64,000 nt of DNA from Sphingomonas caseinilytica (lineage in GTDB: Bacteria; Pseudomonadota; Alphaproteobacteria; Sphingomonadales; Sphingomonadaceae). Position numbers and translations under genes: made by a program. Where the stretch lies: contig NZ_JAMGBA010000002.1 in assembly GCF_023516455.1 (NCBI RefSeq), positions 706,501 to 770,500 on the forward strand. The letters run 5' to 3'. Shown here one piece after another: positions 3,486-17,045 of the stretch. The notes below the pieces were generated by a model, which saw nothing but the letters and a program-made list of their open reading frames with translations, was not told the DNA's origin and did not search any database. Position 1 is the first letter of the stretch. Every line of letters starts with the position of its first letter.

Positions 3486-5540
3486 ATGACCCTGCAAAAT
3501 CCTCCCGTAGCCGCACGAAAGCCGCATACCAATGAAGCGCATGGGGTCCGCTGGGATGATGACTGGCACTGGCTTCGCGATCCGAACTATCCGGACGTCC
3601 AGGACGAGGAGGTGCTCGCCTATCTGAAGGCGGAGAATGGTTATTTCGAAGCCGCGATGGCGCCGCACAAGGCGCTGACCGACGAGCTGTTCGAAGAGAT
3701 GAAGGGCCGCATCAAGGAGGATGACGCGACTGTCCCGCTGAAGGATGGCGACTGGCTCTATTGGTCGGAGTTCAAGAAGGGCACGCAGTATCGCGATTGG
3801 TACCGGAAGCCGGTCTCCGGCGGTGAAGGCGTATTGATCTACAGCGAGAATGCCGAGGCCGAGGGCAAGGAATATTACCGCCTTGGCGCCTTCGCGGTCA
3901 GCCTGGACGGCAAGCTGCTGGCAACCTTGGTCGACGATGACGGGTCGGAACGCTTCAAGCTGGTGATCCGCGACCTCGCGACCGGCGAAGACGTCGAAAC
4001 GGTGACCAAGGTCGGCATCGGCCAGCCGGTCTGGACGAGCGATAGCAAGGGCATCGTATTCACAGAGGTCAACGACCAGTGGCGGTCCTACCGGGCGCAA
4101 TATCATCACATCGAGGATGACCCGGCCAAGGCGGTCACGCTCTACGAGGAGAAGGACGACATCGCCTTTTCGGTAAACGTCGCTCGGTCGACCGACGATA
4201 GCCTGATCTTCATTTCGACCGGCAACAATTCATCCAGCGAAGTGCGCTTCGTTCCCGCCGGCAACCCGGAAGCGGCGCCGGCGCTGATCAAGGCCCGGCG
4301 GCCTGACGTCCAATATGACGCCGACGCAGCGCATGGGAAATTGTGGATCCATAGCAACGACCAACATGTGAACTTCCGCGTTGTCACGGCCGATCCAGCC
4401 ACTCCCGCCGATTGGCAGGAGCTCATCGCCGGAAGCGATCGCACCTATCTTCGGGGGATCAGCAGCCACCGCGACCATTTGCTGATCACCAGCCGGGTCG
4501 ACGGCCTCGATCAGCTGGTGCTTCGGAATTACGAAACCGGCATCGAGGAGCGCGTGCCGTTTACCGAGGCGAGCTACAGCGCGGGCTTTTCCGGCAATCC
4601 CGAATTCGCGCCCGACAGCTATCGCTTGTCCTATTCGTCGATGGTCACGCCCGGAACGGTTTATGACTATCATCCGGCCGAAAAGCGGCTGGAAGTCCGC
4701 AAGGTCCAGGAAATCCCGTCGGGCTATGATCCATCGCTCTATGTCACCGAGCGGCTGATGATTGCCGCTCGTGACGGCGCCAGGGTTCCCGTATCGGTGC
4801 TGCGCCGCAAGGATTCCGCCAAGGACGGGTCGGGCAAGCTGTTCGTCTATGGCTATGGCGCTTACGGCTTTGCCATTCCGCCCAGCTTTTCGACCGCTCG
4901 CCTCAGCCTTGTCGATCGCGGGTTCGCCTTTGCAATCGCCCACATCCGCGGCGGCGACGACCTCGGCTATCAATGGTTCCTCGACGGCAAGCTCAAGAAT
5001 CGCACCAACGCCTTCAACGATTTCGTCGATGTGACCCGCGGGCTAATCGCGGAGGGCTATGCGAAGGCGGGCAGGGTCGCGGCGCAGGGCGGCTCCGCCG
5101 GTGGCGAGCTGATGGGCGCGGCGGTCAATCAGGCGCCGGAGCTTTATGGGGCCGTGGTTGCCGATGTCCCCTTCGTCGACGTGCTCAACACGATGCTCGA
5201 CGACACCCTGCCGCTGACGCCGGGTGAGTGGACCGAATGGGGCAATCCAATCACGGATGGGGACGCGTTTCAGCTGATCAAGAGCTACAGTCCCTACGAC
5301 AATGTCGAGGCGAAGGCTTACCCGGCAATGCTGATCACCGGCGGTCTCACCGACCCGCGCGTCACCTATTGGGAGCCGGCCAAGTGGACCGCGAAGTTGC
5401 GCGCCACCAAAACCGACGACAAGCTGTTGCTCATGAAGATGAACATGGGCGCGGGCCATGGCGGCAAGTCGGGCCGCTGGAATTCCCTCTACGAGGTGGC
5501 CGAGGCCTACACCTTCGTGATCACGCAGATCGACGAATGA
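3486..5540 (+). CDS. ptrB: Oligopeptidase B / prolyl oligopeptidase family (S9A), 684 residues
   Basis: Serine oligopeptidase with an N-terminal seven-bladed propeller (about residues 70-400) and a C-terminal alpha/beta hydrolase domain. The catalytic triad reads Ser537 (GGSAGGELM), Asp623 (GLTDPRV) and His658 (GAGHGGKSG). The DGARVPVSVL and GYGAYG blocks before the nucleophile are typical of the family. It cleaves short peptides, in oligopeptidase B after basic residues; the exact P1 preference is inference. AGGAAG sits 4 nt before the start. No signal peptide, so cytoplasmic or periplasmic location is open. Its stop codon overlaps the start of the next gene (ATGA). Confidence 0.95.
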   Translation: MTLQNPPVAARKPHTNEAHGVRWDDDWHWLRDPNYPDVQDEEVLAYLKAENGYFEAAMAPHKALTDELFEEMKGRIKEDDATVPLKDGDWLYWSEFKKGTQYRDWYRKPVSGGEGVLIYSENAEAEGKEYYRLGAFAVSLDGKLLATLVDDDGSERFKLVIRDLATGEDVETVTKVGIGQPVWTSDSKGIVFTEVNDQWRSYRAQYHHIEDDPAKAVTLYEEKDDIAFSVNVARSTDDSLIFISTGNNSSSEVRFVPAGNPEAAPALIKARRPDVQYDADAAHGKLWIHSNDQHVNFRVVTADPATPADWQELIAGSDRTYLRGISSHRDHLLITSRVDGLDQLVLRNYETGIEERVPFTEASYSAGFSGNPEFAPDSYRLSYSSMVTPGTVYDYHPAEKRLEVRKVQEIPSGYDPSLYVTERLMIAARDGARVPVSVLRRKDSAKDGSGKLFVYGYGAYGFAIPPSFSTARLSLVDRGFAFAIAHIRGGDDLGYQWFLDGKLKNRTNAFNDFVDVTRGLIAEGYAKAGRVAAQGGSAGGELMGAAVNQAPELYGAVVADVPFVDVLNTMLDDTLPLTPGEWTEWGNPITDGDAFQLIKSYSPYDNVEAKAYPAMLITGGLTDPRVTYWEPAKWTAKLRATKTDDKLLLMKMNMGAGHGGKSGRWNSLYEVAEAYTFVITQIDE

Positions 5541-6910
5541 GGTTCGCCGCGCTGGTCCTTGGTTTTCTGGCGGTGTCCGCGCCGGCGATGGCGACGCCCG
5601 AGATCATCGCCTGGGCCGACGTGAACCGGGACGGCGACCAGTGGACCGTAGAATATAGGCTGGAAGAGAAGGCGCCGGTTTGGGCATTCACCCGGTCCGA
5701 TGTGCCCCGGGTCAAGCGGGAAAGCTGGCGCCTGCGCAGCATGGAAGTGCTGACTCCAGGCGTTTCCCTGAAGCGGGTCGGACATTATGACGTGCTGGTC
5801 GCCGCCAAGGGCAATGTGCCGAAGAAGGTGCGGCTGCGTTTCAAGCCGTTCACCGAGGATATCGAGACCAGTTACGACGCGGCGCTGGCTTTCACCGACG
5901 GGTCTGTCGCGCTCTACAACCAGCAGTTCAAGCTGGTGCCGATGCGCTCGCTGGCCGAAGCGGAAAGCGCTCCGATCGATAGCGGCGAACTGCCGCTTGC
6001 CATCCATCCGACTTACATCAGCTTTCGCGACAAGGCCGGTCCCGTACTGGCGCAAGGGACACGCAAACCATTTGCCATTACCCGCGATGACGACGCCTAT
6101 GTCCTGTTCGGGAGGGCCAATCCGGTCACGGGCGCGGCGCTGACCAGCGTCATCGACCCGGGCCTGCCGAAGTGGCTGTCGAACTACATGCTGGCGACGA
6201 TGCCTGGCATCCTTGCCGGCTATGCCGCGAAAATGGGTCCTCCGCCGGTCGGACAGCCGATGCTGATGGCGAGCTGGGCCGGGCCGACGTCGGGCGTAAC
6301 CAGCATGGGTGGGAGCGTCCTGCCAGGGACTGTAGTGATGACCTTCGAGGGCGAGGGCGTCACCCAACCGAACCCGGCGATCGAGAATGGCGTCCGCTGG
6401 TTCGTGGCCCACGAAGGCGCGCACTTCTGGCTTGGCCAGAAGGTCATGTACTCCACGCCTCGCGAAAGCTGGATTACCGAAGGAGGCGCCGACCTCCTGG
6501 CCATCCGTGCGGTGGCGGCGGCCGATTCCGGTTATGACGCCAGGAAGCGGCTCGGCGAAGCGAGGGATGAGTGTCTGCCACTGTTGGCGAAAGGCGGCGT
6601 CGCCAGCGCCAATGAACGCGGCGACCATCGCACTTATTATGCCTGCGGCGCGATCATCGCGCTGGCGGCGGAACAAGCCAGCGGCGGCGATTTCGCCGGG
6701 TTCGTGAAAGCGTTGATCGAACGCCATGGCGGCGACAACATCGTTACGCGAGCTGAATGGCTGAGCCTGCTTGAAGAACGCGCTCCCGGAACGAGCGCGG
6801 AAGTATCAGCGCTTCTCGACGGACCAATTGCAGACGTGCCGGCCTCGCTCGACCGTTTCATAGCCAAGACCGGAATTGCCCATTTGCTGCCGGCGGGCAC
6901 CACGCCGTAG
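5537..6910 (+). CDS. Exported M1-like zinc metalloprotein, 457 residues
   Basis: The start overlaps the stop of the oligopeptidase gene (ATGA), so the two are translationally coupled and probably co-transcribed. A signal peptide is clear (MRFAALVLGFLAVSAPAMA). The catalytic segment contains HEGAH (residues 292-296) followed by WITEGGADL with Glu315, the gluzincin HExxH-18-E spacing used by M1 aminopeptidases. The N-terminal half (residues 20-200) is probably a beta-sandwich. Length is shorter than a classical M1 aminopeptidase, and the GAMEN motif is not evident, so substrate and even peptidase activity are uncertain. Confidence 0.85.
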   Translation: MRFAALVLGFLAVSAPAMATPEIIAWADVNRDGDQWTVEYRLEEKAPVWAFTRSDVPRVKRESWRLRSMEVLTPGVSLKRVGHYDVLVAAKGNVPKKVRLRFKPFTEDIETSYDAALAFTDGSVALYNQQFKLVPMRSLAEAESAPIDSGELPLAIHPTYISFRDKAGPVLAQGTRKPFAITRDDDAYVLFGRANPVTGAALTSVIDPGLPKWLSNYMLATMPGILAGYAAKMGPPPVGQPMLMASWAGPTSGVTSMGGSVLPGTVVMTFEGEGVTQPNPAIENGVRWFVAHEGAHFWLGQKVMYSTPRESWITEGGADLLAIRAVAAADSGYDARKRLGEARDECLPLLAKGGVASANERGDHRTYYACGAIIALAAEQASGGDFAGFVKALIERHGGDNIVTRAEWLSLLEERAPGTSAEVSALLDGPIADVPASLDRFIAKTGIAHLLPAGTTP

Positions 6911-6937
6911 GGCCCGCTGACCATTTCAATCGCTCGG

Positions 6938-7816
6938 TTACTTTGCCGCTAGGAATGCCTTCAGTTCTGCTTGGAACAGCTCGGGCTGGTCGTACATGAT
7001 GAAATGGTACGAGTCCGGAATGTGCTTCACCACGGCTTGCGGGGCGCCCGCGTAGGAGGCGCGGTAATAGCCGTCCATTTGCGGTTGGGTAAGCGGTGCT
7101 CCCTGCGGAACTACCCATAGCACTGTCAGCGGCACCGTGATCTTCGCAAGGTCGGGGCGGAGGTCGGTGACGATCAGGTCGTACATGCCCTGACCCGAGA
7201 CGGCAGGATCGCTGGCGAGCGACTGGGCGACCGCGGAAGGGCGCATCGTCTCGGTCTTCACCATCGATGCGATCGTGCCTTCGATCTGCTTCTTGCGCGC
7301 GTCGCCGGCCGACCTGGCGATACCTTCGCGGATCTGTGTGGCCATCGGAACAACGCTTTCAGGCGTCGCCTTCGGCCCGCCGAACATCGCACCGAGGAAC
7401 GGCATCATGTCGACGACCATCACTTTCGAGGCGATTCCCTCATTGCGGCCGGCGACAAGCATCGCGAACGATCCGCCCATCGAATGGCCGACCAACGCCG
7501 GCGACTTAAGACCAGCTTCCTTGATGTAGCGCGCGATCTCGTCGGCAACCGGGATCAGCACGGGGCCGCTGGCATTGCCTCCGGCAGGCGCGCCGTCGAA
7601 ACCCGCAACCTTGACGAGGTGATAGCGATAGCCCGGAACCGCAGCGACGGTGCCGTTCCACACATCGGGTGAAGAGCTCAGTCCGGGGATCAGGACGACA
7701 TCTGCGCCAGTGCCTGTAACCGCGACCGAGATGCGGTCGCTCGAGAAGTTCTTCGCAGTGGCAGGGTGGGCAAGCAGGAAAACAGATAGCAACAAGGTCA
7801 ACAGACGCGTGATCAT
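6938..7816 (-). CDS. Exported alpha/beta hydrolase, 292 residues
   Basis: Signal peptide MITRLLTLLLSVFLLAHPATA, then a compact alpha/beta hydrolase fold. The oxyanion region is VVLIPGLSSSPDVW, the nucleophile elbow GHSMGGSFAM (Ser near residue 112), and the His lies in PDSYHFIMYDQP near the C-terminus. Start chosen at ATG 7816 because GGAG lies 8 nt upstream; a GTG at 7825 is in frame. Likely a periplasmic esterase or lipase-like enzyme; substrate unknown. It converges on the M1-like gene with a 27 nt gap. Confidence 0.88.
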   Translation of the reverse strand: MITRLLTLLLSVFLLAHPATAKNFSSDRISVAVTGTGADVVLIPGLSSSPDVWNGTVAAVPGYRYHLVKVAGFDGAPAGGNASGPVLIPVADEIARYIKEAGLKSPALVGHSMGGSFAMLVAGRNEGIASKVMVVDMMPFLGAMFGGPKATPESVVPMATQIREGIARSAGDARKKQIEGTIASMVKTETMRPSAVAQSLASDPAVSGQGMYDLIVTDLRPDLAKITVPLTVLWVVPQGAPLTQPQMDGYYRASYAGAPQAVVKHIPDSYHFIMYDQPELFQAELKAFLAAK

Positions 7817-7921
7817 CAAAGCCACTCCGACATTAGTGTATTAGTTCACCAGTACAGCAATGCTTGGCGACGTCTGCCAAGAACTAAAACCGCAGAGCGA
7901 CTGTGACGCTGCTTCTTGAGA

Positions 7922-8254
7922 TCAACCCCGTTCGTTGCTTCGGGCGCAATCGATGCAGAGCGCCGCCTCTGGGCGCGCCTCCAGCCTGGCGGGAGCGATT
8001 TCGCCACCACATCGCACGCATTCGCCGTAGGTGCCGTCCTCGATCCGCGCCAGCGCGCGCTTAATGGACGCAATTTCCTTCGCGATCAGCGCGCCCTGGC
8101 CTTCCAGCGCCGCATCATCCTCCATCTCGATCGCCTGTTCAGAGGAGTCGGCATTGAGCGGTTCCGCCAGATCGTCTGCAATGCGGGACTGGCGTGATTC
8201 CAGCTCTTCGAGGTCGGCCTCAAGACGAGCCTTGAAAGCGGCGGTGTCGGGCAT
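7922..8254 (-). CDS. TraR/DksA family zinc-finger protein, 110 residues
   Basis: Small DksA-like protein: N-terminal coiled coil (RLEADLEELESRQSRIADDL), a GxxYGxC segment (EDGTYGECVRCGGEIA) and a C4 zinc finger with CVRC and CIDC. DksA proteins bind the RNA polymerase secondary channel; this one lacks the longer DksA N-terminus, so it belongs with the short DksA/TraR type. Role in regulation is inferred from family. Monocistronic appearance. Confidence 0.9.
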   Translation of the reverse strand: MPDTAAFKARLEADLEELESRQSRIADDLAEPLNADSSEQAIEMEDDAALEGQGALIAKEIASIKRALARIEDGTYGECVRCGGEIAPARLEARPEAALCIDCARSNERG

Positions 8255-8332
8255 AGTGCATCCCCCTCACTCGTTATGAGGGAAGACTAGCAAGCTCGGC
8301 CACGGACGCAATCGTTCAACAATGCCGGGGAA

Positions 8333-8695
8333 CTAGCACCTCAGTGTATCGCCGGCGAACCACTTGCGCTCGCAATTCTGATTGGCAGTTACCCAGCGCG
8401 GATAGGCGCGGTCGGGGCGGTCGTGCCACCAGTCGTTGAAGCTGTCGGACTTCCACGCTGAATCACCCTGATATTCGCGATAATCGTCATAATAGACGAT
8501 GCTGTCGTCATTACGCCGATCCCGGCGTCCGTCACGCCACCGCTCGTCGTGGCGACGCCCGTCGCGGCGGTCGAAGCCGCCATGATGGCCGGAGCCCGAT
8601 CGGGCTGAGAGCTGCAGGCCAGGCGCCGATTGAGCGGTGGCCGGCATGGGTGCGGCGATGGCCAGGGTTGCGATCGCAAGCAAGAGAGTGCGCAT
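8333..8695 (-). CDS. Small exported basic protein, 120 residues
   Basis: Signal peptide MRTLLLAIATLAIAAPMPATA, then an Arg/Asp/His-rich stretch (about residues 35-62, for example HGGFDRRDGRRHDERW) and a C-terminal part with two cysteines (NQNCERKWFAGDTLRC). Start fixed by AAGGAGG at 8704-8710. Preceded by a candidate EcfG general-stress promoter. No family recognised; periplasmic or surface location likely. The charge-rich middle resembles RcnB-like periplasmic proteins in composition only. Confidence 0.8.
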   Translation of the reverse strand: MRTLLLAIATLAIAAPMPATAQSAPGLQLSARSGSGHHGGFDRRDGRRHDERWRDGRRDRRNDDSIVYYDDYREYQGDSAWKSDSFNDWWHDRPDRAYPRWVTANQNCERKWFAGDTLRC

Positions 8696-8732
8696 CAAAG
8701 CTACCTCCTTCTGCTCCCCACCCGGCGATGGC

Positions 8733-8758
8733 AACGCGTAACGGCACCGTAACGTTCC
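8733..8758 (-). promoter_or_regulatory. Candidate EcfG (general stress sigma factor) promoter
   Basis: On the minus strand GGAAC (8754-8758) and CGTT (8733-8736) are separated by exactly 17 nt, matching the GGAAC-N16-17-CGTT consensus of alphaproteobacterial EcfG promoters. It lies 38 nt before the start codon of the small exported protein. Seen by eye; not tested statistically. Confidence 0.5.
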
Positions 8759-8803
8759 GAATCGTGAAGCAGGGCCGGCGCTTGAAGGCCGGCCCCACGC
8801 CAT

Positions 8804-9286
8804 TTAGTTATTCACGCTGGCGTTGGCGCCAGCATTTACCGAAGCTGCCGCCGCCGCCTTTAGCTGCGCGTCGGTCAACTTGGTCACCAGGCCCTTGGTA
8901 CCGCGGTACAGTTGCGCGACCGGAACGTGCATCGACCTGTCACCCTTTACGATCACTGCGGTGTCGCCGTGAACTGACTGGACGGTGCCGATCTTGCGAC
9001 CGCTGTCGCTACGGACAACGGCACCGGCAGTAAGGTCAGCGCTGGTCGCAAGCCTGAGGTCTTGGCCGAGCGCGCCATCAACCGTCCGGTTGACCGCGTG
9101 GTCGGCGTGATTGAGGGCACCGTCGACTGTCCCGGTAACGCTGCCGACCGTGGCGCCCGGATCTACGCTGACGCCTCCGCCGACTGCGCCGCCAACCTGG
9201 CCGCCAAGTCCGACGTTTACCTGCGCCAAGGCTGGGGTCGAGGCGACAGCTGCGACAAGCGCAAGCATCTTGATGGAATTACGCAT
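8804..9286 (-). CDS. Exported PRC-barrel-like protein, 160 residues
   Basis: Signal peptide (MRNSIKMLALVAAVASTPALA), a Gly/Val-rich low-complexity segment (residues 22-75), then a folded region reading GAVVRSDSGRKIGTVQSVHGDTAVIVKG that resembles PRC-barrel folds, and an Ala-rich tail. Sphingomonads have many such exported proteins; role unknown. GGAGG (9293-9297) precedes the ATG. The product is in the same direction as the small exported protein downstream and could be co-transcribed. Confidence 0.8.
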   Translation of the reverse strand: MRNSIKMLALVAAVASTPALAQVNVGLGGQVGGAVGGGVSVDPGATVGSVTGTVDGALNHADHAVNRTVDGALGQDLRLATSADLTAGAVVRSDSGRKIGTVQSVHGDTAVIVKGDRSMHVPVAQLYRGTKGLVTKLTDAQLKAAAAASVNAGANASVNN

Positions 9287-9369
9287 TAACTTCCTCCGAT
9301 GTTTTGGGGTCCCCGCCGTTCAACGCACGCACCGTTGGGATCGATGCATGAACCAGAAACTACGCCCGG

Positions 9370-9400
9370 TTCATCGGGCAGATTGGTTTGGCCCGATGAA
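9370..9400. repeat. Perfect 10-bp hairpin
   Basis: TTCATCGGGC (9370-9379) and GCCCGATGAA (9391-9400) are perfect complements around an 11 nt loop. No T tract. Intergenic, upstream of the minus-strand exported protein; role unknown. Confidence 0.6.
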
Positions 9401-9478
9401 AGAAGCGGGGATGTCCGGAGGTACCAAATTCCTGGCGAACGGATGACGATGTCCCCCGGACACGCCGACGAGCGTAGC

Positions 9479-9541
9479 GGGCCTTCCCCCGGAAGGCCCT
9501 AACTCCTCACGACCGGATGACGACGTCCCCCGGACGTCGTC
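9479..9541. repeat. Two tandem CCC-loop hairpins
   Basis: First hairpin: GGGCCTTCC-CCC-GGAAGGCCC (9479-9499). Second: GACGACGTCC-CCC-GGACGTCGTC (9519-9541), ending in the stop region of the SnoaL-like gene. A partial relative (GATGTCC-CCC-GGACA) lies at 9448-9462. No U tract is present, so these are either non-canonical terminators or dispersed repeat units. Confidence 0.6.
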
Positions 9542-9950
9542 ACTGCCGTTCGTTATCCCAGATCATGTGGATGATCCTCCAGCCCAATTCCGGATGACGG
9601 AAGAGCTGGATCGAATTGATGCCGCGCCGCTCGACATCCGCATCGTCCGGCGAGGTCCGCGCTTCATAGTGGCTCCAGACATGGGCCATGTTGCCGAACA
9701 GGTCGATGCGGCGGCTGGTCTCCACCTCGTAGAAGGGGTTGGCCATGAAGAAAGGCGTGACGTTGCGCTGATATTCCTCGGGGCCCATTGCCAGCATCGC
9801 CGGCCTGCCGTCCTCGACCCAGGTCCGCACCTGCCGAGCTTCGGGCAGGAAGCAATTGGCCTGGCGGCTCCAGTCGCGCGGGCCGGCGGGGCCGCTGATC
9901 ATGTCGTACATTTCGTCGACCACGGCGCCGATTTCCTGCTCGTCGTTCAT
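9540..9950 (-). CDS. SnoaL/NTF2-like protein, 136 residues
   Basis: Cone-shaped alpha+beta fold suggested by the pattern: N-terminal helix (EQEIGAVVDEMYDMISG), then strands with VWSHYEAR and a terminal GWRIIHMIWDNE typical of nuclear-transport-factor-2-like proteins of the SnoaL_3/DUF4440 kind. No signal peptide. Start chosen at the second ATG (9950), which is better spaced from GGGAGG than the first (9953). Such proteins serve as small-molecule isomerases, hydrolases or binding modules; ligand unknown. Confidence 0.8.
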   Translation of the reverse strand: MNDEQEIGAVVDEMYDMISGPAGPRDWSRQANCFLPEARQVRTWVEDGRPAMLAMGPEEYQRNVTPFFMANPFYEVETSRRIDLFGNMAHVWSHYEARTSPDDADVERRGINSIQLFRHPELGWRIIHMIWDNERQ

Positions 9951-10052
9951 CATCCCTCCCGAGTGGCTTTGCCGATCAATCTGATATCGAACCTTGGACG
10001 TGCGGACGATCCGGGCAAGTGAGCTTCGATCAACGGCGGGAGCGCAACGAAA

Positions 10053-10088
10053 AAGCCCTGCGCTGGCAACGGGGCCATCGCAGGGCTT
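10053..10088 (-). terminator. Intrinsic terminator after the twin microprotein genes
   Basis: AAGCCCTGCG (10053-10062) pairs perfectly with CGCAGGGCTT (10079-10088). Reading leftward the stem is followed by a T run (positions 10049-10054 are A on the plus strand), 28 nt after the stop of the nearer microprotein gene. The plus-strand side also ends in TTTT, so it may work in both directions. Confidence 0.8.
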
Positions 10089-10115
10089 CGTTTTGCCAAT
10101 GTTATCGGGCGAAGA

Positions 10116-10184
10116 TTATTCCCAGTTCCACTCGTCTGCCTTGGCGTCGCCACCAGTCAGAAGTGCTAAAAGATACGAAATCAT
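10116..10184 (-). CDS. 22-residue microprotein, copy 1
   Basis: ATG at 10184, stop TAA at 10116-10118. The product is a hydrophobic start (MISYLLALL), then TGGDAKADEW and an acidic end N-W-E. TAGGAGAG lies 6 nt upstream. A second copy 66 nt upstream encodes the same peptide with two conservative changes, while silent third positions differ, which argues for translation and selection on the peptide. It is too short for standard gene callers. A terminator follows. The hydrophobic head could sit in the membrane with a Trp-rich acidic tail at the surface; or the peptide could be a precursor. No family recognised. Confidence 0.7.
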   Translation of the reverse strand: MISYLLALLTGGDAKADEWNWE

Positions 10185-10250
10185 AACACTCTCCTAGATT
10201 AATTTGCGCTAGCGGAGCGCTTTGTTTAACTAATTATGACTAGGCAGTAA

Positions 10251-10319
10251 CTATTCCCACTGCCACTCGTCTGCCTTGGCGTCACCACCGGTCAGAATTG
10301 CCAAAAGATATGAGATCAT
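10251..10319 (-). CDS. 22-residue microprotein, copy 2
   Basis: ATG at 10319, stop TAG at 10251-10253; AAGGAAAGAG upstream is a good ribosome site. Product: MISYLLAIL, TGGDAKADEW, then Q-W-E. Compared with copy 1 it has Ile for Leu at residue 8 and Gln for Asn at residue 20. Five of the remaining codons differ only at the third base (codons 2, 3, 6, 10, 12) and the stop codon also differs. The two genes lie in tandem and are probably one transcript ending at the terminator at 10053. Function unknown. Confidence 0.7.
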   Translation of the reverse strand: MISYLLAILTGGDAKADEWQWE

Positions 10320-10618
10320 TACTCTTTCCTTTGTTATGCAGGCGAAAGTACCCACCTTTAAAAGTGTAGCAGGAATCCATCCAGCAGGCGGCGTCACTGG
10401 GCCGCTTCAAATTGCTGTTCAGCCGCATAATTTGACGTTGGCCGCCTCACCCGAACGATAGGCAACTCGCATACCGCCGGCCGGAAGCGGTCTTCGATCA
10501 AATGCGGGCCGGATAGGCCGGAAAACTAGGCAAATCGGGCAACAAGGGAGACGCTCAAGCGTTTCAACGGAGACAGGGAATAACCCTCCAGGGGGCAGAG
10601 CTTTTAGGAGCCTCCATC
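10320..10618. other. Divergent intergenic region
   Basis: Separates the leftward microprotein genes from the rightward exported protein at 10619. I see no credible ORF or strong stem-loop. TTGACG at about 10432 could be a -35 element for the rightward gene, but no good -10 follows at the right distance. The promoter of the microprotein genes must lie here. Confidence 0.4.
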
Positions 10619-10951
10619 ATGAGAATCGGGTTGATGTTACTCGCGGCGGGCGCATTCGCGCTGACGCCGGCACTCGCCGCGCCAGGCGGCAGCGGCGGCC
10701 AGGGATCGACTCAAGGCGCCGGGTGGATCCATATGAACGGACCCGACAGTACGGGACAGCCTGGCATCGAATGCGGCGAAGACGGAGCCGATCACTTCCC
10801 CGGCCATGCTTCCGATGCCCGTGGATCGGCCTTCAACGAGGACGGCATCGCCCACGGCGTCTATGCCGGCGAGCAACCCAATAATTCGCGCAACGAGGCG
10901 TCGGTGTCACAGTACGATAGTGCCTGCGCAGGCGGACCGCCGAGCGAATAA
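10619..10951 (+). CDS. Exported small protein, 110 residues
   Basis: Signal peptide MRIGLMLLAAGAFALTPALA, then a Gly/Ser/Asn-rich, acidic mature part with two cysteines (GIECGEDG and SACAGG) that could form a disulfide. AGGAG (10606-10610) precedes the ATG. No family recognised; periplasmic or secreted. It is flanked on the right by a palindromic repeat. Confidence 0.7.
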   Translation: MRIGLMLLAAGAFALTPALAAPGGSGGQGSTQGAGWIHMNGPDSTGQPGIECGEDGADHFPGHASDARGSAFNEDGIAHGVYAGEQPNNSRNEASVSQYDSACAGGPPSE

Positions 10952-10986
10952 GCCAGCAGACCGAAAAGGAGGCCAATTCGCTAAAT

Positions 10987-11053
10987 CGTCATCGCGAGCC
11001 GCTGCAGCGGCGCGGCGATCCAGCCTGGATTGCTTCGCTTCGTTCGCAATGAC
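10987..11053. repeat. Dispersed palindromic repeat (GTCATTGCGAGC/AAGCAATCCA family)
   Basis: Inverted repeat of REP/BIME type: GTCATCGCGAGC on the left and the mirror-image CTGGATTGCTTCGC ... CGCAATGAC on the right. A close relative lies at 25929-26003. It directly precedes the DUF2200 gene. Confidence 0.75.
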
Positions 11054-11065
11054 AATTTGGCGCTC

Positions 11066-11419
11066 ATGACCCACAGAGTCTTTCGAATGAGCTTCGCCAG
11101 CGTCTATCCGCACTATGTCGCCAAGGCGGAGAAGAAGGGCCGTACCAAGGCGGAGGTGGATGAGATCATCCGCTGGCTGACCGGCTATTCGGATGCCCAG
11201 CTCGCCGCGATCCTGGAGGACGGGACCAATTTCGAGGATTTCTACACCAAGGCCCCCGCGATGAACCCCAATCGCACCGCGATCACGGGCGTCATCTGCG
11301 GCATCCGCGTGGAGGAAATCGAGGACCCGCTGATGCGCGAGCTCCGCTACCTCGACAAGCTGATCGACGAGCTGGCGAAGGGCAGGAAGATGGACAAGAT
11401 CCTGCGGGCCGCCGAGTAA
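11066..11419 (+). CDS. DUF2200 family protein, 117 residues
   Basis: Matches the DUF2200 signature closely: [56 protein letters not shown] and a C-terminal [22 protein letters not shown]. Start set at ATG 11066 because family members begin just before [13 protein letters not shown]. Small cytosolic protein of unknown function, mostly helical. The upstream region is a palindromic repeat and no clear ribosome site is visible, so expression may be weak or leaderless. Confidence 0.9.
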
Positions 11420-11426
11420 AGGGGCA

Positions 11427-11449
11427 GTCACGGGATTCACTACCGTGAC
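11427..11449. repeat. GTCACGG/CCGTGAC hairpin, copy 1
   Basis: GTCACGG, a loop containing ATTCACT, and CCGTGAC, followed by GGCC. A near-identical element occurs at 11855-11877, so the small membrane gene at 11493 is bracketed by two copies. May act as a terminator for DUF2200 or be a mobile repeat. Confidence 0.6.
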
Positions 11450-11492
11450 GGCCTTCACCGGATGATAACCGGTTAGCGCTAGGCTCCGCGCC

Positions 11493-11744
11493 ATGGCCAG
11501 TCCGCTACCAACGCGTAAGAAATCCGTCGACCTTGGATCGGGCGAAGTGCGCGTGTCGCGGATCAGGCGCGATCCGCCCCCGCCCGAAAAGCCGAAGGAG
11601 CTTCGCCATCCCGACGTGGTCAACCGCTCGGCCGTGGCGATCGGCGTGCTGGTCTTCGCGCTCGCCATCGTCGTCATCCTGATCGCGTTCAGCATCTTCT
11701 CCGGCTACAACATGACCCCAAGGCAAGTGACGCTGCACGTCTGA
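11493..11744 (+). CDS. Small single-pass membrane protein, 83 residues
   Basis: Basic, proline-rich N-terminal half (for example RIRRDPPPPEKPKELRHP) on the likely cytoplasmic side, then one transmembrane helix (AIGVLVFALAIVVILIAFSI) and a short outer tail. No family name known to me. It lies between two copies of the same hairpin repeat. Confidence 0.7.
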   Translation: MASPLPTRKKSVDLGSGEVRVSRIRRDPPPPEKPKELRHPDVVNRSAVAIGVLVFALAIVVILIAFSIFSGYNMTPRQVTLHV

Positions 11745-11752
11745 GCCGCCGA

Positions 11753-11841
11753 GCGCAGGCAAGCGATTGCAAAGCAATCGGAAGCCTGCGCGAAGAGACG
11801 GCGAAGACCGGCCGACGCCCGACCCCGGATTTGATCCGGGG
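11753..11841. repeat. Two hairpins downstream of the small membrane gene
   Basis: A composite stem GCGCAGGC/GCCTGCGC (11753-11760 with 11784-11791) containing an inner GATTGC/GCAATC stem, then CCCCGGAT-TTG-ATCCGGGG (11823-11841). Together with the element at 11855 they form three consecutive stem-loops between convergent genes, which likely serve to end transcription from both sides. Confidence 0.6.
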
Positions 11842-11854
11842 AAGTGGCGATCGA

Positions 11855-11877
11855 CGTCACGGATTCACTCCGTGACG
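11855..11877. repeat. CGTCACGGA/TCCGTGACG hairpin, copy 2
   Basis: Perfect 9-bp stem with loop TTCAC, followed by GGCC. Same element as 11427-11449 except that copy 1 carries one extra base on each side of the loop. Confidence 0.6.
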
Positions 11878-11905
11878 GCCCCACCTAAGAAAATCCTCCC
11901 TCCGG

Positions 11906-12304
11906 CTACGCCGCCGCAACGCCCTCCGCCGCGACCGCTTCGATTTCGACCATATAGCCGAAGTGGAGGTCGGGGACGGGGACGACGGTACGGGCCGGGC
12001 GCCAGTCGCCGAAGAACTCTGCGAAGACGCGGTTGAAGGCGTCCCAATGGTCGATGCCGACGAGATACGCGCGGACGTGGAGGACACGGTCGCGGCTGGT
12101 GCCAGCGGCGGCCAGGACGCGATCGAGATTGTCGAGGGTAAGGCGGACCTGCTCCTCGAAGCCGCGGTCGGCGGCGTGGGTGCCGTCCGGCAGGCGCGGC
12201 AGCTGGCCCGAAGCGAATATCAGCCCGCCGTAGCCCGTTGCCGGGACGTAATGGGCGTGGGCTGGCGGGTTGCCGAAGGTCTGGATGTCGGTGGGGGATG
12301 TCAT
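11906..12304 (-). CDS. RidA family protein, 132 residues
   Basis: YjgF/YER057c/UK114-type protein: GGLIFASGQLPRLPDG, EEQVRLTLDNLDRVLAAAG and a C-terminal RTVVPVPDLHFGYMVEIEAVA. RidA proper hydrolyses reactive enamine/imine intermediates and has a conserved Arg near position 105; here the Arg in PARTVVPVPDL fits that place. Start at ATG 12304, with GGAG 9 nt upstream; a longer in-frame start (12436) would run through a hairpin. Subgroup, and hence substrate, is uncertain. Confidence 0.88.
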   Translation of the reverse strand: MTSPTDIQTFGNPPAHAHYVPATGYGGLIFASGQLPRLPDGTHAADRGFEEQVRLTLDNLDRVLAAAGTSRDRVLHVRAYLVGIDHWDAFNRVFAEFFGDWRPARTVVPVPDLHFGYMVEIEAVAAEGVAAA

Positions 12305-12367
12305 TTCAGGGGCTCCGGAATAGCCGAAGGAGATTTGTTCGCGATGAATAGAGGCGAAGGCGGACCC

Positions 12368-12412
12368 ATGATGCAAGCGCGATGTTCCCCAAACATCGCT
12401 GGCTTGCATCAT
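12368..12412. repeat. Long imperfect hairpin
   Basis: ATGATGCAAGC pairs with GCTTGCATCAT (12368-12378 with 12402-12412), then after a 2-nt bulge GCGATGTT pairs with AACATCGC around a five-base loop. Lies in the 213 nt between RidA and the Cys-rich gene, both transcribed leftward. It may be a terminator without U tract, an RNA processing site or a regulator of RidA. Confidence 0.65.
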
Positions 12413-12517
12413 CAAGCCCGGGGTGAGGGTGAGCATCGGCCGACCGGCGCTGAGATCGGTTTCGAATTTTCAAAGAGCCGCCGGCCTGACGCCTATTTTT
12501 GGCCCCCTACGACCCCA

Positions 12518-12730
12518 TCATCGCGTGTGGCATGGTCTACAACAAATGCCGCAACCGTCCGAATTTGGATAAATTGTATAGGCGACGGCCATTGCTTCCT
12601 GGCAGGACTGGAAACTCCCCAATGGCTGCCGATTCCGATCCCCCGGCATATAGCGGCAGCCGTCTTTATGGACCTCATGCTCGCCGGACGGCTGAGCCTT
12701 GTCGTTTACATAATAGTGATCGAAAGCCAC
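12518..12730 (-). CDS. Small Cys/His-rich protein, 70 residues
   Basis: GTG start at 12730 with GGGAGG 6 nt upstream. Product begins VAFDHYYVNDKAQPSGEHEV and contains HKDGC, PGDRNRQPLGSFQSCQEAM and a terminal DGCGICCRPCHTR, so five cysteines and several histidines. I recall short proteins with the same order (YYVND, HEVH, C, LGxFxSC, GCxxCxxxCHT) from diverse bacteria including Bacteroidota; no name or function is known to me. Likely metal-binding. The track-style ATG at 12766 would add residues outside the conserved part. Confidence 0.7.
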   Translation of the reverse strand: MAFDHYYVNDKAQPSGEHEVHKDGCRYMPGDRNRQPLGSFQSCQEAMAVAYTIYPNSDGCGICCRPCHTR

Positions 12731-12914
12731 CGGACCCTCCCCGCGTTGGGGCGAGAGGCTCCGCACATCGGCGAGCCACCCGCCGCAGGACGATTCGGCA
12801 CGCTCATTTTGTTTAACCTGCGTTAGACGTCAAGCCGAGAACGGTTACGGGGAGCTCGCCTTCAACTTACAGATTATCTAGCGTCACAGTTCGCACGTCG
12901 CCTAAGCTTAGCCG

Positions 12915-13544
12915 ATGTCAGGACGGGGAAGCTTCCGAAATTTTAAGCGAACTCGACGCAGCGATCCGTTGCGCTTCTGGCCGGACGCGCGACGGAAGAA
13001 GGCGGGCTGGTCGCGTTTCGTGCCGCTGTGGGGTGGGGCGATTGGGGCCGGGGTGCTGGTAGGGGTCGGCTGGGCCTATTGGCCGGGCGGCGGAGACGGC
13101 GGATCCCAGCCACGGAACACCAGCATCGCAGCCTATGTCGATCGGCTGGAACGGTCGGGCGATAGCTTTGCGGCGCCGTCCGGAGGTTCGGACGGCGTTC
13201 GCGCCCACTTCACCTTCTGCCACACCGGCGGCGGCTATAACTGCGTGGTGGACGGCGACACGCTCTACCTGAAGGGCGTGAAGATCCGCATCGCGGACAT
13301 CGACGCGCCGGAAACGCATGATTTCAAATGCGCCGCGGAAAAGTCCCTGGGCGACCGCGCCACGCAGCGGCTGATCGGCCTGGTCAATTCAGGCGCGGTG
13401 ACCCTGGCCCCGATCGACCGGGACGAGGACAGTTACGGCCGAAAGCTCAGGATCGTTAAGGTCGACGGGGAGTCGGTCGGCGAAACGCTCGTCGATGACG
13501 GGTTGGCGCGCTGGTACGCCGGCGGTCGGCGGCCCTGGTGCTGA
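12915..13544 (+). CDS. Membrane-anchored thermonuclease (SNase) family protein, 209 residues
   Basis: Basic N-terminus, one transmembrane helix (GGAIGAGVLVGVGWAYWP, about residues 39-56), linker, then an SNase OB-fold: CVVDGDTLYLKGVKIRIADIDAPET carries the Ca-binding Asp and the Arg of the active site, and DEDSYGRKLRIV carries the second catalytic Arg. The enzyme is probably anchored in the inner membrane with the nuclease domain outside. Its last 231 nt are duplicated downstream at 14093. Nuclease activity is inferred from family. Confidence 0.88.
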   Translation: MSGRGSFRNFKRTRRSDPLRFWPDARRKKAGWSRFVPLWGGAIGAGVLVGVGWAYWPGGGDGGSQPRNTSIAAYVDRLERSGDSFAAPSGGSDGVRAHFTFCHTGGGYNCVVDGDTLYLKGVKIRIADIDAPETHDFKCAAEKSLGDRATQRLIGLVNSGAVTLAPIDRDEDSYGRKLRIVKVDGESVGETLVDDGLARWYAGGRRPWC

Positions 13545-13554
13545 ATTGGATATC

Positions 13555-13779
13555 CTACCAGAGCGGGCTGCGCGGCCGGTGCGCCTGTCGAACCACCGTG
13601 CCCTCGATCAGATAGGGTTTCAGCTTTCGAAACATTTGCGCGGCGCCTTCGACGCTCATGGTCACCAGGCGCGTTCCGCCGGCGGGCAATCGTTCGATCG
13701 CGGAAATCCCCACTTTTTCGGCGAGACAGCGGCTTTTCACCTGGGCTTCGTCCAATGTGACGAACAATTCTCGGCTCAT
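13555..13779 (-). CDS. Small hypothetical protein, 74 residues
   Basis: Product begins MSRELFVTLDEAQVKSRCL and has a mid segment GTRLVTMSVEGAAQMFRKLK and a basic, proline-rich tail. No family recognised. Its ATG overlaps the stop of the upstream 49-codon gene (ATGA), so the two are translated together. It converges on the SNase gene. Confidence 0.6.
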   Translation of the reverse strand: MSRELFVTLDEAQVKSRCLAEKVGISAIERLPAGGTRLVTMSVEGAAQMFRKLKPYLIEGTVVRQAHRPRSPLW

Positions 13780-13925
13780 TTAGCCGCCTCCCGCTTGGCG
13801 GCGGCAATGGCGTCGCGAAGGTTATTGTAGCGATATTCGCCCCACAGGAAGATATCGGCCTGGATGCGCTTGATCCCGAGGCGGGCGAGCTCCGTCTCGT
13901 CGATCTGGTTGTCGTTGCTGGTCAT
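13776..13925 (-). CDS. Small hypothetical protein, 49 residues
   Basis: ATG at 13925, stop at 13776-13778 overlapping the next start. Product starts MTSNDNQIDETELARLGIKR, continues IQADIFLWGEYRYNNL and ends in an Ala/Lys-rich helix. Likely a soluble helical protein; the FLWGEYRYNNLRDA segment suggests real coding selection. The pair lies between the intact SNase gene and its truncated copy. Confidence 0.6.
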   Translation of the reverse strand: MTSNDNQIDETELARLGIKRIQADIFLWGEYRYNNLRDAIAAAKREAAK

Positions 13926-14388: not shown

Positions 14389-15258
14389 ATGGGATTCGAG
14401 GACTTCACAAGTGCTGAGCTTGAACTCATTAGTTCTGGCGTCCGCCTACGCCGTCCGAGCAATCACACCTCAATTTTCAAGTATGTTGGTCTGAATACAA
14501 AGACGTCTTGGGACAGCCTTGAGGCCACACTCAATCAGTTGACGCTGACAGGCTCCACGGCGACGAGCCTGAATGATCCGTTCGAGCTCTCGCCGTACAT
14601 ATTCGATGATCTCAGACCTCGCATCGTTGCAGCTGCATTGCGAGACACAGGATCTTTAGAAAGCTTAAGGAACGGAAAATTTGAGCCGGACAAGAAGTAT
14701 GGGAATCTCGATCCATACAGGACTCAAGCAAAGGATTACCTTGCCAAAGTTGAGCGCAATTCGAGAATTATCTCATTTTGCGAACGGTCGGACTCGCCGT
14801 TGCTATGGTCACATTATGCACACAGCTACGCGGGAGCATGTTTGCACTTTCTCGGGCGAGCATTTCGAAGTTCACGAGCTCAAATGGGGTATGTCTCATA
14901 TTCTAAATATCGACCAACTTACCCACTGAGCCTTGCGCTAACTCTTGCTGCGAACTCGAGCGGCAAACCTCCAATCTCCAGCATGGAGTTGAGGCGCGCT
15001 GAAAGTGAGAAGCTCTACTTTTTTACGAAGGCGGCCGATTGGGAATACGAAACTGAGGTTAGGATCGTTTACAACACTGTCAGAATGAAGAGCGTGACAT
15101 TCGATGAAGACGGCCTTGCAGCAATCATTCTCGGGCCCCGAATGTCTGATGAAAACCGTGAAAGGATACGGAAGATAATCGGCGCTTCAAAAGTGCCAAA
15201 TCTGCCTGTGCGAGATGCGAAGCTCTCGACTAACTCATTTTCGGTCGAAATAGATTGA
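14389..15258 (+). CDS. DUF2971 family protein, 289 residues, low GC
   Basis: Matches DUF2971: an early YKY-like block (IFKYVGLN), LNDPFELSPYIFD, SFCERSDSPLLWSHYAHSYAGACLHF, GYVSYSKYRP and a terminal W-YE-E-R block (DWEYETEVRIVYN). Function of the family is not established; members often lie in variable, defence-associated parts of genomes. GC is clearly lower than the surroundings, with many AT-ending codons, which suggests acquisition. Directly abuts the convergent DUF4145 gene with no intergenic base. Confidence 0.85.
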   Translation: MGFEDFTSAELELISSGVRLRRPSNHTSIFKYVGLNTKTSWDSLEATLNQLTLTGSTATSLNDPFELSPYIFDDLRPRIVAAALRDTGSLESLRNGKFEPDKKYGNLDPYRTQAKDYLAKVERNSRIISFCERSDSPLLWSHYAHSYAGACLHFLGRAFRSSRAQMGYVSYSKYRPTYPLSLALTLAANSSGKPPISSMELRRAESEKLYFFTKAADWEYETEVRIVYNTVRMKSVTFDEDGLAAIILGPRMSDENRERIRKIIGASKVPNLPVRDAKLSTNSFSVEID

Positions 15259-15990
15259 TCACGGATTGGCGCCGTCTGAAGACCTCGGCGTGTCGCGGTT
15301 TGCGATCCCTTCTAATTTGCTCTTGGGCAGGGACGCATAGAGGGCCTCGAGGCGCTTAGGCTCGGTAATTGCAGTCTCGATTATGAGATTGATAATGCGA
15401 AAGAGCGCTAATGCAGTTTCGCGATCATCCTTGAGATTCATCTCACCCGGATGGACACTCTCGTTGCCAATTACCCGAACGGTATCGAGTGCCTTTTGAA
15501 TGGGCGTCTTAATTTTCCCGGACGCGACCAGTTCCCCAATGGCCTGATCGATTCCCTTCTTTGATGCTCCTAGGTGGGGCAACAGCTTTTGAATGACCAG
15601 GCGGAGAAGCGCAGCAGATCCCCGAGGTGACCGGGGCAAAATGGCACGCGCTTCTTCATAGTCTTCGACGAGATCGGTAGGCATGTCTGCAGCAGAAGGG
15701 GGTGCGTCGCTTTCACTCGGCAGAACGATCTCGCCGCCGACATAGATACTTTCACGACCACAAGCTTCGCAACGTGACATGGAGACTACGGGCGCTTCTC
15801 CGAGATGGCGGCTGCCGTATGCGGAGCCAAGGTCAACCCGGAGGCCAGAGACAAAGCCCCAATGATGCACGGCGTATGTCCGGCAATCGTTGTGTGGACA
15901 AACGAATTTGGCGGTTTCGCCTACCGGTCGCCCATCTTCTTTCCGCTGCGCGTTGAACGCCGATTGAGCCGTCAAATCAAACTTACTCAT
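15259..15990 (-). CDS. DUF4145 domain protein, 243 residues
   Basis: N-terminal zinc-ribbon-like half (CPHNDC and CEAC) followed by the DUF4145 helical domain (EEARAILPRSPRGSAALLRL, GIDQAIGELVASGKI, TVRVIGNESVHPGEM, ETALALFRIINLIIETAI). The family is often an appendage of restriction-type nucleases and also occurs alone; function unknown. Its ATG overlaps the nrdB stop (TAATG), so it is translated behind nrdB. GC is lower than in nrdB. It faces the DUF2971 gene end to end. Confidence 0.85.
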   Translation of the reverse strand: MSKFDLTAQSAFNAQRKEDGRPVGETAKFVCPHNDCRTYAVHHWGFVSGLRVDLGSAYGSRHLGEAPVVSMSRCEACGRESIYVGGEIVLPSESDAPPSAADMPTDLVEDYEEARAILPRSPRGSAALLRLVIQKLLPHLGASKKGIDQAIGELVASGKIKTPIQKALDTVRVIGNESVHPGEMNLKDDRETALALFRIINLIIETAITEPKRLEALYASLPKSKLEGIANRDTPRSSDGANP

Positions 15991-17045
15991 TATTCAGCAG
16001 CAACCCCCGCCCGCGAGAACATGTCATCCCCCTCGGCCGTCTCGACCGGCACATCGTTCGCCACCTTGGCCTTCTGCCGGCGGTCGAAATTGTCCCACAC
16101 GTCGTTCCACGTGCCACGCGTCGCGGCCTTTGAATATTCCGTCGCGCGGGTTTCGAAGAAGTTGGCGTGCTCGACGCCGTTCAGCATCGGGGCGAGCCAG
16201 GGGAGGGGGTGCTCGTCGACCATGTAGATCGGCTTGAAGCCCAGTTGCCCAAGCCGCCAATCGGCGATGTAGCGGATGTACTTCTTGATCTCCTTGGCGG
16301 TCATGCCCTCAACGGGGCCGAATTCGAACGCCAGGTCGACGAACGCATCCTCCAGCCGCACCGTCTTCTGGCAGCAGTCGATGATGTCGTCCTTGACCGA
16401 CTGGGTCAGGCAGTCGCGTTCCTTGGTGAAGGCGTGGAACAGCTTGACGATGCCTTCGCAGTGAAGGCTCTCGTCGCGGACCGACCAGCTGACGATCTGG
16501 CCCATGCCCTTCATCTTGTTGAAACGCGGGAAGTTCATCAGCATCGCGAACGACGCGAACAGCTGCAGCCCCTCCGTGAAGCCGCCGAACATGGCGAGCG
16601 TGCGGGCGATGTCGGCGTCCGTATCGACGCCGAAGGTGGCGAGATAGTCGTGCTTGTCCTTCATCTCCTTATACTGGAGGAAGGCCGAATATTCGCTTTC
16701 GGGCATGCCGATGGTGTCGAGCAGGTGGCTGTAAGCCGCGATGTGCACCGTTTCCATGTTGCTGAACGCGGTCAGCATCATCTTGATCTCGGTCGGCTTG
16801 AACACGCGGCCGTATTTGTCGTGGTAGCAGTCCTGCACCTCGACGTCGGCCTGGGTGAAGAAGCGGAAGATCTGGGTGAGGAGGTTGCGCTCCCCTTCCG
16901 TCAGCTTCTGCGCCCAGTCGCGGCAATCCTCGCCCAGCGGAACCTCTTCCGGCATCCAGTGGATCTGCTGCTGGCGCTTCCAATATTCGAACGCCCATGG
17001 GTATTCGAACGGCTTGTAGGTCTTGGAGGCTTGGAGGAGGGGCAT
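15990..17045 (-). CDS. nrdB: Ribonucleoside-diphosphate reductase beta subunit, class Ia
   Basis: 351 residues. It holds the diferric-tyrosyl radical cofactor for the alpha subunit in dNTP synthesis. Ligands are readable: Asp/Glu of QADVEVQD, ExxH in METVH, the radical Tyr four residues after that His (HIAAYSHLL), Glu in FTEGLQLF and ExxH in DESLHCEG. C-terminal tail is present for docking to NrdA. It follows four small membrane genes and a palindromic repeat after nrdA. The downstream DUF4145 start overlaps its stop. Confidence 0.97.
   Translation of the reverse strand: MPLLQASKTYKPFEYPWAFEYWKRQQQIHWMPEEVPLGEDCRDWAQKLTEGERNLLTQIFRFFTQADVEVQDCYHDKYGRVFKPTEIKMMLTAFSNMETVHIAAYSHLLDTIGMPESEYSAFLQYKEMKDKHDYLATFGVDTDADIARTLAMFGGFTEGLQLFASFAMLMNFPRFNKMKGMGQIVSWSVRDESLHCEGIVKLFHAFTKERDCLTQSVKDDIIDCCQKTVRLEDAFVDLAFEFGPVEGMTAKEIKKYIRYIADWRLGQLGFKPIYMVDEHPLPWLAPMLNGVEHANFFETRATEYSKAATRGTWNDVWDNFDRRQKAKVANDVPVETAEGDDMFSRAGVAAE

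Follow-up and report, generated by a model that had tools for sequence, protein, structure and literature searches.

Two short, near-identical reading frames lie side by side in an intergenic stretch of Sphingomonas caseinilytica DNA. Do they encode peptides that the cell makes, and what would such peptides do? The window analysed here is the whole stretch of 64,000 nucleotides, and coordinates refer to it unless another locus is named. Bacterial small proteins of fewer than 50 residues are well known as a kind, and 22 residues is below the length that the usual gene callers report.

The twin reading frames

The sequence-only reading had placed two 23-codon ORFs on the minus strand, and both are present. 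They were defined from the sequence, by tblastn and by comparison of the copies, and they stand in tandem, each with 22 codons plus a stop. The ribosome-binding-like sites were read from the sequence and fall within the 79-nt repeat described below.

10251 to 10319, minus strand: copy 1 ORF, 22 amino acids, MISYLLAILTGGDAKADEWQWE, stop codon TAG
10116 to 10184, minus strand: copy 2 ORF, 22 amino acids, MISYLLALLTGGDAKADEWNWE, stop codon TAA
10327 to 10330, minus strand: ribosome-binding-like AGGA of copy 1
10191 to 10195, minus strand: ribosome-binding-like AGGAG of copy 2

The two peptides share the pattern MISYLLAxLTGGDAKADEWxWE. The copies differ at 9 of 69 bases. Five of the differences are silent third-position changes, and the stop codon differs (TAG versus TAA) with the stop retained. 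The two amino-acid changes are I8 to L, by one base, and Q20 to N, by two bases. The comparison of the copies thus reproduced the list of base differences given earlier. An unprompted repeat search returned a 79-nt pair at 10117-10195 and 10252-10330, 86% alike at a spacing of 135 nt, and in each copy this repeat begins at the ribosome site and ends at the stop codon. Upstream of the ribosome sites the copies are no more alike than chance would give (56% of shuffles were as good). A good ribosome site had been claimed for each copy; the AGGAG of copy 2 bears this out, whereas copy 1 has only the weaker AGGA.

Evidence for translation

The presence of two copies allowed a first test of coding signal. 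The Nei-Gojobori method counts 13.8 silent sites with 5 changes between the copies and 52.2 other sites with 3, a Ka/Ks of about 0.12. The silent excess has a one-sided Fisher p of 0.008 for one paralogue pair with one frame considered. Divergence was also simulated by random placement of the same number of changes with the same transition share. Two or fewer amino-acid changes arose in 0.14% of trials starting from copy 1 and in 0.19% of those starting from copy 2, again with a single frame considered; when an intact start and stop were also demanded, the values were 0.10% and 0.13%. Across the six frames, the copies differ by 2 amino acids in the minus-strand ORF frame and by 3, 7, 7, 8 and 8 in the other five. 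The frame with 3 changes is antisense. The minus strand is favoured because the ribosome site, start and stop coincide with the edges of the repeat.

Selection on a translated product, as proposed in the earlier reading, is supported by the Ka/Ks, the Fisher p and the simulation (0.0014-0.0019). The support is short of proof: it comes down to a single comparison of two paralogues with modest p-values, and the antisense frame shows only 3 changes. Judged from this one pair, it is very likely that the twin ORFs are translated.

Terminator, hairpins and candidate promoter

Three further features lie around the ORFs.

10053 to 10088, minus strand: intrinsic terminator hairpin with 15-nt arms, 14 pairs, a 6-nt loop and a T run, 27 nt past the stop codon of copy 2
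10206 to 10220, minus strand: small hairpin GCGCT-N5-AGCGC, 30 nt past the stop codon of copy 1, with a weak terminator shape on the plus-strand reading only
10363 to 10371, minus strand: candidate extended -10-like TGCTACACT of an inferred promoter upstream of copy 1, without a -35 match

The hairpin after copy 2 had been described as a perfect terminator. It is there, with arms at 10053-10067 and 10074-10088, and it is nearly perfect, since 14 of 15 positions pair. It was absent from the output of a consensus terminator scan. The hairpin after copy 1 is not terminator-like on the minus strand. There is a weak case that it and the terminator after copy 2 diverged from one original. In gapped comparisons of the sequence past both stops, 28, 18, 104 and 28 of 2000 shuffles were as good under four scoring schemes, and in another comparison 0.4% of 500 shuffles were as good. 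This hints weakly at common descent, and the hairpin may thus also have been part of what was duplicated. A -10 of the TGCTACACT type matches once in the 3,066 bases of L002, where 0.28 matches are expected and 46 of 200 shuffles contain at least one. No sigma-70 promoter pair was found on either strand of 9900-10700.

Search for relatives

The sequence-only reading called the peptides conserved and proposed a search for relatives. They are conserved between the two copies of one genome. Elsewhere, neither the genome searches (by tblastn, profile, unit DNA and pattern) nor the database queries brought up a sequence that was recognised as a homologue, a part of the weak matches having been inspected. 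The genome counts given here include the window's own genome, and the order, family and class samples overlap. Several of the collections may omit the window's genome or very near ones, and close strains may be missing from them.

Both tblastn and a DNA search returned this pair alone from the window's own genome, and there a profile of both copies added one chance-level piece (E 3.7) inside a 223-aa frame. Copy 2 matched 2 of 61 genomes by tblastn, the second (G030) at 13 bits inside an 812-aa frame. With E up to 10, the two-copy profile matched 38 of 71 genus genomes, giving 29 loci from other genomes; none of the 10 inspected holds a comparable start-to-stop ORF. The profile matched 7 of 396 genomes of the order sample (E up to 0.05), 9 of 397 of the family sample (E up to 0.02) and 2 of 385 of the class sample (E up to 0.01). 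Of the order and family matches, L087, L088, L090, L091, L092, L094 and L096 were inspected, and L089, L095 and L097 (in frames of 448, 448 and 786 aa) were left out. Among those inspected, the closest resemblance is in ALLRGGCARADPWRW (L092, within a 74-aa frame) and TGGDIQAPEWNW (L096, within a 64-aa frame), neither of which has the corresponding start or stop. With about 400 genomes searched, their E values of 0.011-0.015 per genome are what chance would give.

The DNA of the unit matched at least 8 of 71 genus genomes, with at least nine matches in at least seven other genomes; in many genomes the scoring covered 10 first-look candidates. The ORF pair was absent from the six of nine such matches that were inspected (L106, L107 and L109 were left out). 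A match in G085 reads ATAKADEWNE in one frame; the stretch shown is also open throughout in another frame, and the likeness is taken as probable chance. Among 84,980 species genomes, the pattern DAKxDEWxW occurred at 14 loci, all inspected, and none has the peptide ORF. Viral contigs had no match to any of three patterns, and phages had no match. Plasmids gave two peptide matches at E 10, both inside an oxidoreductase gene, and none to the unit DNA. The peptide had no match in PHROGs. A large protein database queried with a 48-aa frame and a 44-aa joined sequence gave no match, which is weak evidence because few 22-residue proteins are expected in such databases. Among papers found by subject, the peptide is named in none of the titles or abstract openings. 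All of this agrees with the earlier statement that no family is known.

The twin ORFs would therefore appear to be orphan bacterial microproteins without a recognised relative, of a kind that is itself already known. Bacterial small-protein genes under 50 residues are a known kind (for example PMC10117436, PMC8195425). The twin ORFs are like such genes in having a short ORF with a ribosome site, a terminator-like hairpin and silent-biased change. They differ in being known from sequence alone, in having no recognised homologue and in forming a tandem near-identical pair. The sequence signal is clean, yet it comes from one pair with no recognised relatives. If translated, the ORFs would be a microprotein family without any recognised relative, and would illustrate how peptide genes that are young or evolve fast come into being and are duplicated.

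Peptide properties and proposed role

Each peptide is divided into two unlike halves, with a GRAVY of about +2.1 for residues 1-10 and about -2.0 for residues 13-22. The tail is polar and acidic and has two Trp residues. No membrane-spanning helix is expected, because the hydrophobic part is only about 9 residues, the highest 19-residue hydropathy (copy 2) is 0.43 and the peptide carries a net charge of -3. Over residues 1-11 the hydrophobic moment is high for the composition, though marginally so, as 5.5% and 4.7% of shuffles reach it. The full-length moment is ordinary (48% and 47% of shuffles reach the same value), and the tail half has a low one (reached by about 96%). Given the short hydrophobic part and the negative charge, the membrane association or precursor role that was suggested earlier is a conjecture.

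The best reading of the whole, which is offered tentatively, is a tandem, lineage-restricted cassette of translated microproteins with a docking head and a Trp/acidic tail. The locus would form its own small transcription unit, with a promoter upstream of copy 1, two cassettes each of a ribosome site plus ORF, and the terminator. The 22-residue product would act whole, as a peripheral-membrane or partner-docking peptide. Its hydrophobic N-terminal half, ISYLLALLT, would insert shallowly in the inner membrane or in a hydrophobic groove, and Gly-Gly would be the hinge between head and tail. The DAKADEW-x-WE tail, in which only x differs between the copies, would make a specific contact. The promoter, translation, membrane docking and tail contact are all steps that we infer. 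Against docking, a run of nine hydrophobic residues is short for anchoring in a membrane. Given translation, the docking mode seems plausible but somewhat doubtful.

Flanking genes

The next gene on the same strand, 9540-9953 (minus), encodes a 137-aa protein and lies about 100 nt beyond the terminator. Of 60 other genus genomes, 12 have an orthologue that is 71-84% identical, and another 20 have weaker matches or a fragment. Compared by eye, what precedes these 12 orthologues differs from the window's sequence; among these upstream regions, L019 resembles L021 and L026 resembles L027. The fetched flanks of the 12 orthologues contain no twin-type peptide. Since the orthologue upstreams differ and the fetched flanks lack the peptide, the peptides are not tied to this gene across relatives.

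On the opposite flank, the gene 10619-10951 (plus) has matches in nine other genus genomes. Six of these nine (G014, G030, G065, G069, G074 and G079) also have a 71-84% identical orthologue of 9540-9953; in them the two genes are separated by about 70 kb or more, or lie on separate contigs, and the peptides thus sit at a junction unseen in those six relatives. The G+C of the 400-base segments at 10000 and 10200 is 51-53%, versus 58-69% in other segments starting 5000 to 13800. Ten neighbours were scanned with each of Pfam, NCBIfam and PADLOC, and eight with PHROGs. The genes 8333-8803, 8804-9286, 9540-9953, 10619-10951 and 10907-11695 match no family in these four libraries, and the remaining scanned neighbours are ordinary or possible defence genes.

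Alternative explanations

With one pair to go on, the unit may instead be a non-coding RNA or a neutral recent duplication, in which the ORFs are accidental and the excess of silent change arose by luck. The antisense frame is nearly as well kept, and the entire unit folds more stably than shuffled sequence (z -2.5), the terminator hairpin (z -3.2) being the probable source. Taken singly, however, the copies barely exceed shuffled sequence in folding (z -0.8 and -0.7), and RNA structure is accordingly not favoured as what is conserved. Rfam covariance models had no match up to E 1 in 8000-12500. The agreement of the repeat edges with ribosome site and stop, and p-values of 0.001-0.008, further make this explanation unlikely. 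A role as regulatory leaders would instead let ribosome behaviour on the Trp tails control the terminator, and hence 9953-9540, as in attenuators or arrest peptides. Short ORFs ending in W-x-W-E do stand just ahead of a terminator hairpin with a T run, with a same-strand gene beyond it, and the known attenuator leader peptides trpL and tnaC are likewise short Trp-containing ORFs before such a hairpin. Unlike these, there are two copies here, while attenuation does not need two full cassettes, and the downstream gene occurs in the 12 relatives without the peptide. That gene also belongs to no family in the four libraries, and no strong antiterminator was seen by eye. Leader regulation may be peculiar to the window's genome alone; overall it is quite improbable. 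Tandem small intergenic ORFs with a hydrophobic part also recall type I toxins such as Ldr and Ibs, whose loci are tandem or duplicated. On this explanation the peptides would be repressed by an antisense RNA ending at the plus-strand site 10206-10220, where the weak terminator shape lies just upstream of copy 2. ZorO/ZorP offer the same likeness, the duplicated zorO-orzO being a type I locus (PMC3919570). The twin peptides differ from these toxins in their acidic tail and in a hydrophobic run too short for the membrane-spanning helix discussed above. The putative antisense RNA has no clear support in the sequence: plus-strand terminator-like sites are at chance level (1 found versus 0.9 expected), and neither strand of 9900-10700 has a promoter match. 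A transmembrane toxin fits poorly, and the type I explanation is very improbable.

Other explanations have the peptides processed. MISYLLAxLTGGDAKA could be a minimal Sec signal peptide, cut after Ala-Lys-Ala to free the hexapeptides DEWQWE and DEWNWE, which would serve outside the cell as a pair of signals or effectors. An A-x-A motif does come after the hydrophobic core, and the tail that the copies share is on the far side of the putative cut. In G339, one of 396 genomes searched by profile, a weak match (per-genome E 0.0045) falls in an apparent signal peptide, LAILTGGTAKAQE, at the start of a 1005-aa frame. That match is at chance level for 396 genomes, however, and an A-x-A within 22 residues is easily chance. 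The N-terminus is the sole positive group ahead of the core, and a core of about 9 residues in a 16-residue leader is short for a signal peptide. Export is distinctly unlikely; if it did occur, the finding would matter more. Its specific form, a lineage-restricted two-member peptide code in which each gene exports a hexapeptide (DEWQWE or DEWNWE) from an exceptionally short Sec-type leader, has a slim chance at best. A ribosomally made peptide that is modified or has a double-glycine leader and is cleaved at GG, of a lasso, graspetide or bacteriocin-like type, is extremely improbable. LTGG resembles a double-glycine end, and the window's genome has a lasso-type cluster. A Thr before Gly together with acid residues recalls lasso cores, and the twin peptides share with lasso precursors a mid-peptide Thr and Gly and acid residues able to close a ring. 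They differ in lacking the P-x-L-x-x-L-G leader motif. Double-glycine export was rejected on the count of Peptidase_C39 (PF03412), which has no match in the window's genome and matches in 8 of 14 control genomes. A role as the precursor of the lasso-type cluster was likewise rejected: the sole PF13471 match is on contig C1 and the peptides are on C2, and the cluster has its own candidate precursor with P-x-L-x-x-L-G. The translated microprotein cassette with a docking head and Trp/acidic tail is the preferred reading.

Other features of the genome and locus

The lasso-peptide-type cluster (L099, G000:C1:204500-224000) occupies 7557-11396 of its locus, all on the minus strand. Its genes encode a 312-aa frame without a Pfam match, PqqD, a Transglut_core3 protease and an asparagine synthase-type protein, and its candidate 40-aa precursor is MKENSVKRPAWTRPNLVRLGQIKDVAGKQTPLSQATNNKS (9686-9567).

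Within the window, a second tandem repeat of 47 nt (81%) lies at 9415-9461 and 9489-9535, about 600 bases downstream of the peptide genes. The copy at 9489-9535 borders a hairpin-forming GACGACGTCC-CCC-GGACGTCGTC. Convergent genes at 14389-15990 encode a DUF2971 protein (PADLOC PDC-S31) and a DUF4145 protein (PADLOC PD-T7-4), with a G+C of about 49-57%. This pair is a candidate phage-defence insertion, and a ribonucleotide reductase beta gene (15990-17045) adjoins it.
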